The position numbers were made by a program, and so were the translations under genes. Below, piece after piece: positions 18,655 to 23,963 of a stretch of DNA of 38,936 nt. The DNA is taken from contig JARGFS010000010.1 of the NCBI GenBank assembly GCA_029211095.1, positions 1 through 38,936 of the forward strand, given 5' to 3'. The notes beneath the pieces were generated by a model, which was given only the letters and a program-made list of their open reading frames with translations, searched no databases and was not told where the DNA came from. Source of the stretch: a bacterium. GTDB taxonomy: Bacteria; Zixibacteria; MSB-5A5; GN15; FEB-12. Position 1 is the first letter of the stretch; the number at the start of each line of letters is the position of its first letter.

Positions 18655-19875
18655 TTGGAACCTGTCAAAAAGAGGATTAGCCAAAGAGTGACCAGACCGA
18701 AATATGAATTGATGGCCCCGGCGGGAAATCTCGCTATGTTCACAGCTGCTGTAAAAGCGGGCGCGGATGCGGTCTATTTTGGACTCAGTGATTTTTCGAT
18801 GCGGGCCTCCTCTAAGAATGTCACCATTGCCGATCTGGATGAGATGAAGAAGATAGCTGCTGCTTCGCCCAGAGATCTGAAGATGTATTTGACCCTGAAC
18901 ACTATCATCTACAACGAAGAGATTACGCAATTGGAGCAGATCATTGAAGAGGTCAAGGGCAGAATTGATGCTGTCATCTGCTGGGACCTGGCGGTGATTT
19001 CGCTCTGTAAAAAGCACAAGATTCCATTTTTTATCTCAACTCAGGCCTCAGTGGCCAATATTGCTTCGGCTGAGTATTACAAGGAACTCGGGGCACAGCG
19101 GGTGGTGCTGGCGCGCGAACTAAACCTGGAGCAGATTGCGGAGATAGCGAAGATAATTGATGTGGAGTGTTTTGCTCATGGCGCTATGTGCGTGGCTATC
19201 TCGGGGCGCTGTTTTATGTCTCAATTCACTTATAATCGATCCGCAAACCGGGGGGAATGCAATCAGAATTGTCGCAGGAGTTACACCGTCACCGATGACG
19301 CTGGTCATGAACTGGAAGTCGAGAACTCACGAATCATGTCGGCCAAAGACCTCTGCACCCTCCCGTTTATTGAAGAAATGAAACAGGCGGGCGTGATCAG
19401 TTTTAAGATTGAAGGGCGTGGTCGGGACCCAAGATATGTTGACCTGGTTACTTCGGTTTATCGAAAGGCATTGGACAATTCTCTGACTCCGGAAGAGATT
19501 CAGACTGAGATGAAAGAGCTTGAGAAGGTGTTCAACCGCCAGTTTTCTTTCGGGTTCTATCTCGGAGAACCGACCGATCATGACTTCTCTTCGACCGAAA
19601 ACAGTGCGGCAACCGAAGTCAAACAGGGCCTGGGAAAAGTTGTCAACTACTATGCCCGTAACCAGGTCGCTTCGATTAAGCTGACCGCCGATCTGACGGT
19701 GGGAGACAAAATTGTTGTTATCGGGCATAAGACAGGGATTGAGACAACGGTTGTTACTTCGATGGAAGTTGAGAACCAGCCGGTGAAGGAGGCGAAAAAG
19801 GGGGACTTTGTCGGTGTCAAGATAGCTGGCATTCGCAAAAATGACGCCGTATACAAAGTTATTGCCAAAGAGTGA
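18655..19875 (+). CDS. Peptidase U32 family protein
   Basis: YELMAPAGNLAMFTAAVKAGADAVYFGL; CFAHGAMCVAISGRCFMSQFTYNRSANRGECNQNCRRSYTV; SAKDLCTLPFIEEMKQAGVISFKIEGRGRDPRYV. Start codon uncertain (TTG 18655 or a downstream GTG/ATG). Confidence 0.9.
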   Translation: MEPVKKRISQRVTRPKYELMAPAGNLAMFTAAVKAGADAVYFGLSDFSMRASSKNVTIADLDEMKKIAAASPRDLKMYLTLNTIIYNEEITQLEQIIEEVKGRIDAVICWDLAVISLCKKHKIPFFISTQASVANIASAEYYKELGAQRVVLARELNLEQIAEIAKIIDVECFAHGAMCVAISGRCFMSQFTYNRSANRGECNQNCRRSYTVTDDAGHELEVENSRIMSAKDLCTLPFIEEMKQAGVISFKIEGRGRDPRYVDLVTSVYRKALDNSLTPEEIQTEMKELEKVFNRQFSFGFYLGEPTDHDFSSTENSAATEVKQGLGKVVNYYARNQVASIKLTADLTVGDKIVVIGHKTGIETTVVTSMEVENQPVKEAKKGDFVGVKIAGIRKNDAVYKVIAKE

Positions 19876-19883
19876 GCGAGCAG

Positions 19884-20029
19884 ACCGCACAATGGACAGT
19901 TTCTAAACCCGAACAAATCTGCGGTTACACCCTAATATTGCGAAGCCTCAGACAGGAATCTCCGGTTCAATCCTGTTCACCTTCCAATTGAGGCTGGGGG
20001 TATTGTCTTGCTCCGGGTAAGCGCCGGAG
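19884..20029 (+). other. Multi-hairpin intergenic region (candidate structured RNA / leader)
   Basis: Perfect inverted repeats ACCGCA/TGCGGT (19884-19889/19920-19925); AGCCTCA/TGAGGCT (19944-19950/19989-19995) enclosing ACAGGA/TCCTGT (19952-19957/19971-19976); CTCCGG/CCGGAG (20011-20016/20024-20029). Confidence 0.4.
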
Positions 20030-20078
20030 TTATATTTTACTGTGATATCAAATCAAATCTAACACAGGAGTAAGAACC

Positions 20079-20189
20079 GTGGGCGACAAAGGAAGTAAAG
20101 ATAAGGGGAAGAAGGAAACGCAGAAAAAAGCGCAGAAAACTCCAAAGGAAAAACGAAAAGAGAAAAGAGAGAAAAAGAACAGCAAGTAA
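20079..20189 (+). CDS. 36-aa Lys-rich small protein (absent from the ORF track)
   Basis: GTG start preceded by AGGAG; MGDKGSKDKGKKETQKKAQKTPKEKRKEKREKKNSK, stop TAA 20187-20189. Confidence 0.6.
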   Translation: MGDKGSKDKGKKETQKKAQKTPKEKRKEKREKKNSK

Positions 20190-20237: not shown

Positions 20238-20271
20238 AAAAAAGAGAGACTGGCCTTAAGCCGGTCTCTCT
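20238..20271 (-). terminator. Strong Rho-independent terminator, downstream of the minus-strand RRM gene
   Basis: AGAGAGACTGGC-CTTAA-GCCGGTCTCTCT, 12-bp stem (one G.U); A-tract on the plus side gives a T-tract on the minus transcript. Confidence 0.85.
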
Positions 20272-20318: not shown

Positions 20319-20609
20319 TTAGTAGGAATTGCGATAGCGATTTCCGCCATTGCGATTGCCACTGTCAGTTTTGGGCTTGGCTTCATTGACGTTCAGTTCC
20401 CGTCCATTCACTTCTTTGCCATTCAGACCGGTGATAGCGGCAGTAGCCTCTTCCTGACCGGACATCTCGACAAACGCGAACCCTTTCGGACGGCCGCTGT
20501 CTCTGTCCATAATGACTCTTACAGATGTGACTTCACCAAAAGCTTCAAAAGCCTGGCGTAAATGATCTTCGGTCGTATCGTACGACATGTTTCCGATGTA
20601 GATATTCAT
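20319..20609 (-). CDS. RNA-binding protein, single RRM with short Gly/Asn/Arg-rich tail
   Basis: MNIYIGNMSYDTTEDHLRQAFEAFGEVTSVRVIMDRDSGRPKGFAFVEM (RNP2 and RNP1). Start trimmed to 20609 with AAGGAGTG upstream. Confidence 0.93.
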   Translation of the reverse strand: MNIYIGNMSYDTTEDHLRQAFEAFGEVTSVRVIMDRDSGRPKGFAFVEMSGQEEATAAITGLNGKEVNGRELNVNEAKPKTDSGNRNGGNRYRNSY

Positions 20610-21249
20610 TCTACACTCCTTAGGTTGCTTATCCCGAAGTGATCTGCGTTCAGTCGAAAACAGATTCTCCCAGACAAAAAACGATTTGCGCAGGATTGCG
20701 CGGTAATTCGAGATTAAGCTTTGGCGGAGGATTGTAGATTGGGACAATACTGCGATAAAGGTCTAACTCAAATAATTAGTTACACTTTAGTATATCGGCT
20801 TTAATCACAAAAACCTACGATTATTTTGGACAAACTGGGTCAAATATTGAAATTTTTTTGATTGTCCCTATTTTGGTCCCTGGAGGTCAAGGCCTGTTTG
20901 AGGCATAAGCTGATGTGCCGCAACAGGAACCTTTGCCACCACGGACAGAATATCTATCTGCTGTCCGATTTGTTCTTGGTGCTAAAGAAACTCGAAAACG
21001 GCCTGGTCATTCGGCAGGTGGGAAGTCCCATAATCTTGTGAGGAGGATGAATAGCATACTTGAACAAAACTAAGGAATACAACTCCAGGGGAAAGGAATC
21101 ATGGAGTGTTATCCCCTGGCCGTAATTCTGAATCTGCAGGAAAATCTTGGAAAATCGTCATTTTGGATGTATACTATCCATGTTTCGCAATTGTAAGTTA
21201 CACTGATTTCAGACTATTTGATCAGGTATACAAAGAAAGGTACTACATT

Positions 21250-21762
21250 ATGCAGCCCCCCGTTTATAAAGCCGAAGCGGTTCGCCCCATGTGGGAAGAG
21301 TTGGCCCAGGTAGGAATCAAGCCGCTCACCACCGCTGACGAAGTTGATGAGTACGTCACAAAAAAAACAGGCACAACGCTGGTGGTCATTAATTCTGTCT
21401 GCGGCTGTGCGGCCGGTAATGCTCGCCCTGGCGCTATGCTGGCGTTACAGCACAAAACCATACCAGATCATCTGACCACTGTCTTTGCCGGAATGGATCA
21501 CGAAGCGGTAGATAGAGCCCGGTCCTATATGCCGGTTCCCCCTTCCTCCCCCTGTATCGGGCTGTTCAAAGAGGGACAGATGATCCATTCGCTGGAGCGT
21601 CGACAGATCGAACAGATGGATGCCGAAGAGATCGCCGAGAATCTCACCGCCGCTTTTGACAACTATTGCACGGCCCAAGGCCCTTCCTGCCCCCCGGAAA
21701 CATTCCAGAAGATAATTCCGGTCGATATGTGTGGTTCGGATGTTCCTCCTCATGTAGAATAG
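21250..21762 (+). CDS. BrxA/BrxB family bacilliredoxin
   Basis: TGTTLVVINSVCGCAAGNARPGA (CGC motif) and VFAGMDHEAVDRARSYMPVPPSSPCIGLFKEG. Start trimmed to MQPPVY. Confidence 0.9.
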   Translation: MQPPVYKAEAVRPMWEELAQVGIKPLTTADEVDEYVTKKTGTTLVVINSVCGCAAGNARPGAMLALQHKTIPDHLTTVFAGMDHEAVDRARSYMPVPPSSPCIGLFKEGQMIHSLERRQIEQMDAEEIAENLTAAFDNYCTAQGPSCPPETFQKIIPVDMCGSDVPPHVE

Positions 21763-22049: not shown

Positions 22050-23963
22050 ATGACTGATATCGCTCGTATCCGAAATCTTGCTATCGTGGCTCATATTGAT
22101 CACGGGAAGACCACTCTCATTGACTCCGTGTTCAAAGCCACGCAGACTTTCCGTGACAATCAGGAAGTCGCTGAGCGGCTGATGGACAACAATGTCCTGG
22201 AACGTGAGCGCGGTATTACTATTCGGTCCAAACACTGTACCGTCTCCTGGAATGATTATCTCATCAATATCATTGATACCCCTGGTCATGCCGATTTTTC
22301 CGGCGAGGTTGAACGGGTTCTGTCTATGGTTGACTCTGTCCTGCTGTTGGTTGATGCCAACGAGGGTCCTATGCCCCAGACACGCTATGTTCTGATGCGT
22401 GCCCTCAAGCTGGGTCTTCGTCCTATTGTGGTTATCAATAAAGTCGACCGACCCAATGCCCGGCCCGACTACGCCCTGAATAAGACTTTTGACCTCTTCA
22501 TAGAACTTGGCGCTACCGATGAACAAAGCCACTTTCCCGTCCTGTATGGTTCCGGCCTTGACGGTTGGTTTGTCACCGATCTGGATAAAGAGGCACACGA
22601 AGGAACCGATGCGCTATTCCAGACTATTATTGATGAAGTCCCCCCGCCCCAGGTTAACCAGGAGGGAGACTTCCTGATGCAGGTCAGCTCGCTGGACTGG
22701 AACGACTATATCGGCCAGATTGGTTGCGGGCGAGTGCTGCGCGGCTCCCTGAAAAAAGGGGAAGAATTCACCCGTATGGTCACCAAGCTCAATAACCCTT
22801 CCTCGCCAAACAACGGCTGGTCTTTTGAATCCTCCTCCAAAGCCAGGGGAGTCCACATGTGGATTACTCGTGGCCTGACCAGAGTGGAAACGGATGAGAT
22901 CTCAGCCGGGGACATTGTCTGGATTGCCGGACCACCGGAAATTACTATCGGCGATACTTTTTCAGAAAACGAAGATAGCAACGAAGCGCTCAAGCCACAT
23001 GAAATTGAGGAACCGACCCTCTCTATGTTCTTCCTGGTGAATAACGGACCCTTTTCCGGTCAGGACGGGACCGCCATTATGCTTCGGCAGCTCAAAGACA
23101 GACTGGAAAGAGAGCTTCGCGTAAATGTCGCCCTGAGGATGGAAGATATAGGTCGGGCCGATGGCGTCAAAGTATCGGGCCGTGGGGAACTTCACCTGGC
23201 TATCCTGATTGAAGAGATGCGCCGTGAAGGGCTTGAGTTCTGTATCTCAAGACCGGAAGTTATCACCCATCTGGACGATAAGAACAACGTCACCGAACCG
23301 ATTGAGCAGCTTATAATTGATGTCCCCGAAGAGTACCAGGGGATTGTCATTGAGAAGTTGGCCAGGCGCAAAGGGGAGTTGACTTCGGTAGAAAATGGTG
23401 GGACCAACAGCGTCCGTATTGAGTTTGAAATCCCCACTCGCGGACTGATTGGTTATCGATCCGAATTTTTGACCGACACGCGCGGTCTCGGTATCATGGC
23501 CTCACGATTCAGCGGTTACGGTTCCTGGCGCGGTGACATTGTCTCTCGGAACAGAGGATCGGTGGTCAGTATAGAGACCGGACCGGCCACCGCCTATTCG
23601 CTGGAGAGTCTGCAGGAACGCTCAGTTGTCTTTGTTGAACCGACTGAGAAAATCTACTGCGGCCAGATTGTTGGCGAAAACTCCAGAAACATGGATATGA
23701 CCTGTAACCCGACCAAGAAAAAAAACCTGACCAATCATCGGTCATCCACAAAGGATATCGGCGTAAAACTGGATGTCCCCCGCAAGATGACGCTGGAGCA
23801 GGCGATGGAATGGATCAGGTCTGACGAGTTGGTGGAAGTGACGCCAAAGTCTATTCGGATAAGAAAAACGATTCTGGATTCCGATGAACGTAGGAAAGCA
23901 GAAAAGAGACAGATGATTCTCGATGAGAGCGCTGCGGCTCTTCAGCCCCGCCCTATTGCCTAA
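22050..23963 (+). CDS. typA: Translational GTPase TypA/BipA
   Basis: [89 protein letters not shown]; typical BipA C-terminus ([20 protein letters not shown]). Confidence 0.97.

Follow-up and report, generated by a model that had tools for sequence, protein, structure and literature searches.

A conserved Lys-rich microprotein gene behind a hairpin-containing intergenic region in Zixibacteria, possibly linked to cold-shock RNA remodelling

What might a bacterium encode in a gap that holds several hairpins and an open reading frame (ORF) of only 36 residues, and do the hairpins belong to that ORF? The window, the whole stretch of 38,936 nucleotides analysed here (positions 1–38,936 of contig JARGFS010000010.1, assembly GCA_029211095.1, Zixibacteria), contains such a gap behind a U32-family peptidase/hydroxylase-like gene (18655..19875, + strand). 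The first-pass annotation had described three inverted repeats after the U32 gene, one of them with nested 7-bp and 6-bp stems, and all of these are present at 19884–20029. It had also read a GTG-initiated ORF after AGGAG, and the quoted 36-mer is encoded exactly at 20079..20189 on the + strand, with the Shine-Dalgarno sequence AGGAG at 20066..20070 (GGAG at -12..-9). Proteins so short fall under annotation limits, and standard annotation misses this ORF.

The ORF at 20079–20189 is almost certainly a genuine gene. It stands beyond chance because it is conserved across phyla and because the control with a reversed profile was clean: the reversed profile, identical in composition, found homologues in 0 of the 111 genomes of the window's phylum, versus 22 of 111 with the forward profile. 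Among aligned homologues, the mismatch was 0.45 at the third codon position, versus 0.15 at the first and 0.12 at the second, and the NG86 method gave dN of about 0.1 and, where computable, dS of 0.6–1.3, with dN/dS of about 0.1. When 90 homologous genes were aligned on the start codon, 89 began with ATG, the window copy alone having GTG, and GGAG occupied -12..-9 in most of the leaders. That a Lys-rich frame merely recurs by chance in A-rich DNA is hardly credible: its composition is of low complexity and the sole genome of the same genus (G001, 85% complete) has no copy, but the reversed-profile control, the low dN/dS, and the fixed positions of the start codon and ribosome site refute a spurious ORF. 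The frame, the start, and the Lys-rich content, on whose conservation in relatives the first-pass annotation had staked the ORF, are kept across phyla.

The window peptide contains 17 Lys and Arg among its 36 residues, the "about half" estimated earlier, with a pI of about 10.3 and a net charge of about +10. AlphaFold (23 sequences) placed helices at residues 4–17 and 22–35 (mean pLDDT 79; pTM 0.35); the predicted fold is two helices, the relative position of which is uncertain. We defined group A, the "MGDKGSKDKGK" family, as ORFs of 33–43 residues with a full-length match to the A2 profile (consensus MGDKGSKDKGKREQQKKAxxTPKEKRKLKxEKK). The window peptide matches this profile over its full length at 3.1e-15, being itself one of the 23 profile rows, and all three group A criteria, namely the profile match, the start/GGAG position, and purifying selection, are found in the window gene. 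Profiles from Pfam, NCBIfam, and PHROGs gave no match to the microprotein (HMMER composition filters may hide weak ones), PDB chains gave no convincing match (the only one, at E 2.1, was to a eukaryotic nucleolar protein), and a literature search for peptide strings or the neighbour association returned nothing relevant. The family is uncurated and without an entry in the libraries searched (Pfam, NCBIfam, PHROGs, PDB), although 34 residues share 75–85% identity between some species of different phyla.

How widely is the gene distributed? A DNA search with a 371-nt query found matches in 14 of 61 genomes, nearly all within query positions of about 193–330, a span made up of the promoter-proximal leader and the ORF. 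The profile search of the order was positive in 28 of 81 genomes, paralogues included. A scan of named genomes revealed at least 42 loci in at least seven phyla, nearly all from metagenome-assembled genomes (MAGs); those listed come from Planctomycetota, Zixiibacteriota, Deltaproteobacteria/Desulfobacterales, Acidobacteria, Kiritimatiellia, Krumholzibacteria, Methylomirabilota, Nitrospiraceae, Gammaproteobacteria, and Anaerolineales records, with identity up to 85% over 34 residues among the named loci listed. One cultured carrier is Adhaeretor mobilis (L078). A genome of the same family (G033) carries a homologue, the peptide of which recurs identically at the named locus L050. The copy number is usually one per genome, and the homologue was re-found in 18 of 18 tested genomes. 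At a stringent limit, the gene was detected in 14 of 392 genomes in the phylum of the planctomycetotal locus L067 and in 14 of 395 in that of L073, from a Desulfobacteraceae MAG, that is, in about 3.5% of the genomes sampled in these phyla. This patchy distribution implies that the microprotein is dispensable. A plasmid or phage origin was set aside, as the searches gave no match (a BLAST low-complexity filter applies). One gammaproteobacterial copy (L077, near 372–480) contains an in-frame stop (SPKE*RKLKK) and is likely a pseudogene. Genome G034 holds two copies (L006 and L015) 24 kb apart; a DEAD-box helicase gene comes about 100 nt after each of them, which makes this a duplicated pair.

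The group A profile also retrieved a paralogue within the same order, group B (A3; MGDKGGKKDKxKSxKQKKSKDxQKxKKxQDKQQKKTP), which shares the N-terminus, size, and charge of group A but has a distinct C-terminal half. In L041, an intact tmRNA gene (1664–2019, - strand) has a group B ORF about 60 nt downstream. At the corresponding place upstream of the ORF, three further loci (L038, L040, and L043) have a tmRNA-like 3' end (GTTCGATTCCCC..CTCCA), at which tmRNA itself was not detectable; these ends may represent the scar of an integration or else a tmRNA that has degenerated.

Do the hairpins belong to the microprotein gene? An alignment of the window with the upstream regions of seven relatives revealed two conserved boxes about 17–18 bp apart. 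In the window, these are a -35 box, TTGCTC (20008..20013, + strand; TTGC is invariant in the eight sequences), and a -10 box, TATATT (20031..20036, + strand; TATATT in seven of eight sequences, TATAAT in one), with 17-bp spacing. A strict sigma-70 scan gave no score to these boxes, and it is their conservation that marks them as a putative sigma-70-type promoter. Judged from the -10 box, the mRNA would begin with a probable leader of about 36 nt (20043..20078, + strand), the 3' part of which aligns with the relatives' conserved TCA-TTTT-AA-CACGGAG block.

All three hairpins, on the + strand, precede this leader, and they exceed chance only marginally. The first (stems 19884–19889/19920–19925; 19884..19925) lies just after the U32 stop codon and is weak, with a z-score of -0.5. 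The second (19944..19995) has an outer stem of 19944–19950/19989–19995 with 19952–19957/19971–19976 nested inside (z -1.4). The third (stems 20011–20016/20024–20029; 20010..20030) is the only one standing out from shuffled sequences (z -2.6); it takes up the spacer of the conserved promoter and reaches into the -35 box, which places all three upstream of the gene's own transcript. We therefore hold it very probable that the hairpins are outside the microprotein mRNA. Directly before the -35 box, several relatives have a GC-rich stem and then a T-run (a CCCCGG..CCGGGG-T terminator); at that place the window has its nested hairpin, with GGGGGTATTGTCTT. A simple terminator scan flagged part of the second hairpin, and also the third, as terminator-like. 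The U32 gene probably has its terminator, in degenerate form, in the second hairpin, and the third may double as a terminator of the U32 transcript. The most economical order is the terminator of the upstream gene, then the promoter, then the leader of about 36 nt.

The first-pass annotation had taken the region for a structured leader or an independent ncRNA, and a role of the hairpins at 19884–20029 in regulating the microprotein could draw on the three stems within 150 nt and on the strength of the third. This is highly unlikely, since the stems are upstream of or inside a promoter sequence conserved in eight loci, the folding energy of the region as a whole equals that of shuffled sequence (z -0.2), no Rfam family matches it, and homologues were found neither in relatives by DNA search nor as a second copy elsewhere in the genome. 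For the same reasons the hairpins cannot show covariation; the alignment for covarying base pairs that had been proposed finds no homologous sequence in relatives to work on. The third hairpin is not conserved among relatives, and the sequence that follows the U32 orthologue of G002 on its 3' side is unrelated to the hairpin region. A mobile repeat was rejected, as the region is single-copy in the genome. The hairpins, probably ordinary, fit the 3' end or terminator of the U32 gene better than a leader or ncRNA.

Other leaders of the family were compared as well. The leaders of close relatives gave no support for a conserved RNA structure: their consensus energy is only -1.6 kcal/mol and the covariation term is unfavourable. 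Ten loci (L009, L027, L068, L069, L073, L074, L084, L143, L144, and L155) carry the inverted repeat CCGAA-N6-TTCGG, or close variants, about 40–65 nt upstream of the ORF, and such leaders, from different phyla, also have a TTTTCAA-CAAGGAGAAACAGAT block before the start. This cross-phylum repeat, with a consensus energy of -1.8 and essentially one varying pair, is a candidate RNA element or operator. Seven loci (L073, L074, L080, L084, L143, L144, and L147) have a conserved block like GACGCCAAACGATCTCATCTGCTAAC about 70–100 nt upstream of the ORF. The block resembles a promoter whose spacer is conserved, and it occurs in both Desulfobacterota and Gammaproteobacteria MAGs.

Which genes accompany the microprotein? 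The U32 gene shows no link to it in relatives. Most relatives tested are without a close U32 orthologue, and G002 has the two genes on different contigs; an operon with U32 as a general feature was rejected on these grounds and on the unrelated 3' flank in G002. On the other side, a convergent gene for an RRM-domain RNA-binding protein (20319..20609, - strand; ATG at 20609, the ORF being open to 20747) is separated by an inverted repeat, GAGAGACTGGC-CTTAA-GCCGGTCTCTC (20244..20270, T-run on the - strand side), a probable terminator. Beyond the RRM gene, an ORF matching Pfam Disulph_isomer (BrxA/B-like; 21106–21762) precedes a TypA-like GTPase ORF at 22050.

For 81 group A loci, we compared the ORFs lying up to 600 nt away, all against all. 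Few families recur in unrelated loci, among them DEAD-box helicases in two phyla, RRM proteins in two phyla, and cold-shock-domain (CSD) proteins in several Planctomycetota. Six loci (L048, L055, L061, L065, L067, and L070) have a CSD gene 46–59 nt upstream, on the strand of the microprotein; all six are Planctomycetota and five are close in sequence; RRM genes adjoin the microprotein in the window and in L087, and DEAD-box genes are near it in L006, L015, and L060. Matches to these three families numbered 11 within 600 nt versus one beyond, with the nearer DNA making up 31% of the total, and the corresponding binomial p of about 2e-5 is optimistic because the families were chosen after inspection and the CSD loci are related. 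CSD, RRM, or DEAD-box genes stand beside 11 of the 81 loci, above the within-locus control, and about 70 of the 81 have none nearby. Response regulators, secreted repeat proteins, and SGNH-like proteins, which are large and common families, also recur, likely by chance. In L055, from an uncultured Gimesia, the adjoining cold-shock gene is without its middle part, and L130 has a similar remnant of a cold-shock gene; the microprotein is intact in both.

What function might these observations suggest? The Lys-rich composition suits binding to DNA, RNA, the ribosome, polyphosphate, or a membrane equally. Of the first-pass reading, the highly basic microprotein held up as genuine and conserved, and its proposed association with RNA or the ribosome is a reasonable guess in view of the cold-shock, RRM, and DEAD-box neighbours in some lineages. 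The gene, its conservation, that of the promoter sequence, and the enrichment of neighbours are what was observed. On the basis of neighbours and composition, we infer with roughly even odds a basic, helical protein that would bind RNA or the ribosome as an accessory of cold/stress RNA metabolism. The gene would stand alone under its own sigma-70-type promoter, downstream of hairpins that would belong to the U32 3' end and to the promoter spacer, outside the microprotein mRNA, and it would encode a strongly basic, two-helix protein of 36 residues belonging to a family in several phyla. The Lys/Arg helices would most likely bind RNA or the ribosome, and the protein would probably be a small accessory to cold-shock/stress RNA remodelling by CSD and RRM proteins and DEAD-box helicases, possibly as a factor that neutralises or anneals RNA or that docks on rRNA.

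The main competitor, possible but clearly less favoured, would make the microprotein a basic peptide associated with DNA or the nucleoid, or else a general polyanion/stress (hydrophilin-like) protein, and its proximity to RNA-chaperone genes would reflect stress co-expression alone. Composition does not separate DNA from RNA, and a GroEL-like gene upstream in L080 suggests general stress loci. However, the conserved pattern MGDKGxKDKGK..E..KK...PKEKRK has a specificity beyond that of a generic polybasic tail, and the neighbours recurring across phyla prominently include RNA-remodelling genes. Doubtful is an extra small ribosomal protein in some lineages. The small basic ribosomal or ribosome-associated proteins bTHX and SRA/bS22 have 20–45 residues and are rich in Lys/Arg. 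The microprotein resembles them in this size range and composition and in being encoded by one small gene that has a ribosome site of its own, and its charge and single copy in most genomes would fit such a bTHX/bL38-like role. It differs from them in its patchy occurrence, in its other neighbours, and in having no match in Pfam, NCBIfam, or PDB, where ribosome chains were among those searched; most genomes are without the gene, even within the family, and no ribosomal-protein cluster is found among the recurrent neighbours of the 81 loci within 600 nt.

An accessory of cold/stress RNA metabolism would share its neighbourhood in several lineages with the cold-shock RNA-remodelling set (CspA-type CSD, RRM, and DEAD-box proteins), but none of the domains of that set (CSD, RRM, helicase) occurs in it, and it would be an accessory. 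A more specific version, which we offer tentatively, is that this undescribed family is horizontally mobile or repeatedly lost and would serve cold-shock RNA chaperones and helicases as a dedicated partner, its expression in many carriers being controlled by a conserved leader element of its own (CCGAA-N6-TTCGG plus TTTTCAA-CAAGGAGAAACAGAT). The placement beside CSD, RRM, and DEAD-box genes gives the microprotein a concrete, testable role, and this recurrent adjacency may suggest that small basic accessories have been overlooked in bacterial cold/stress RNA remodelling.
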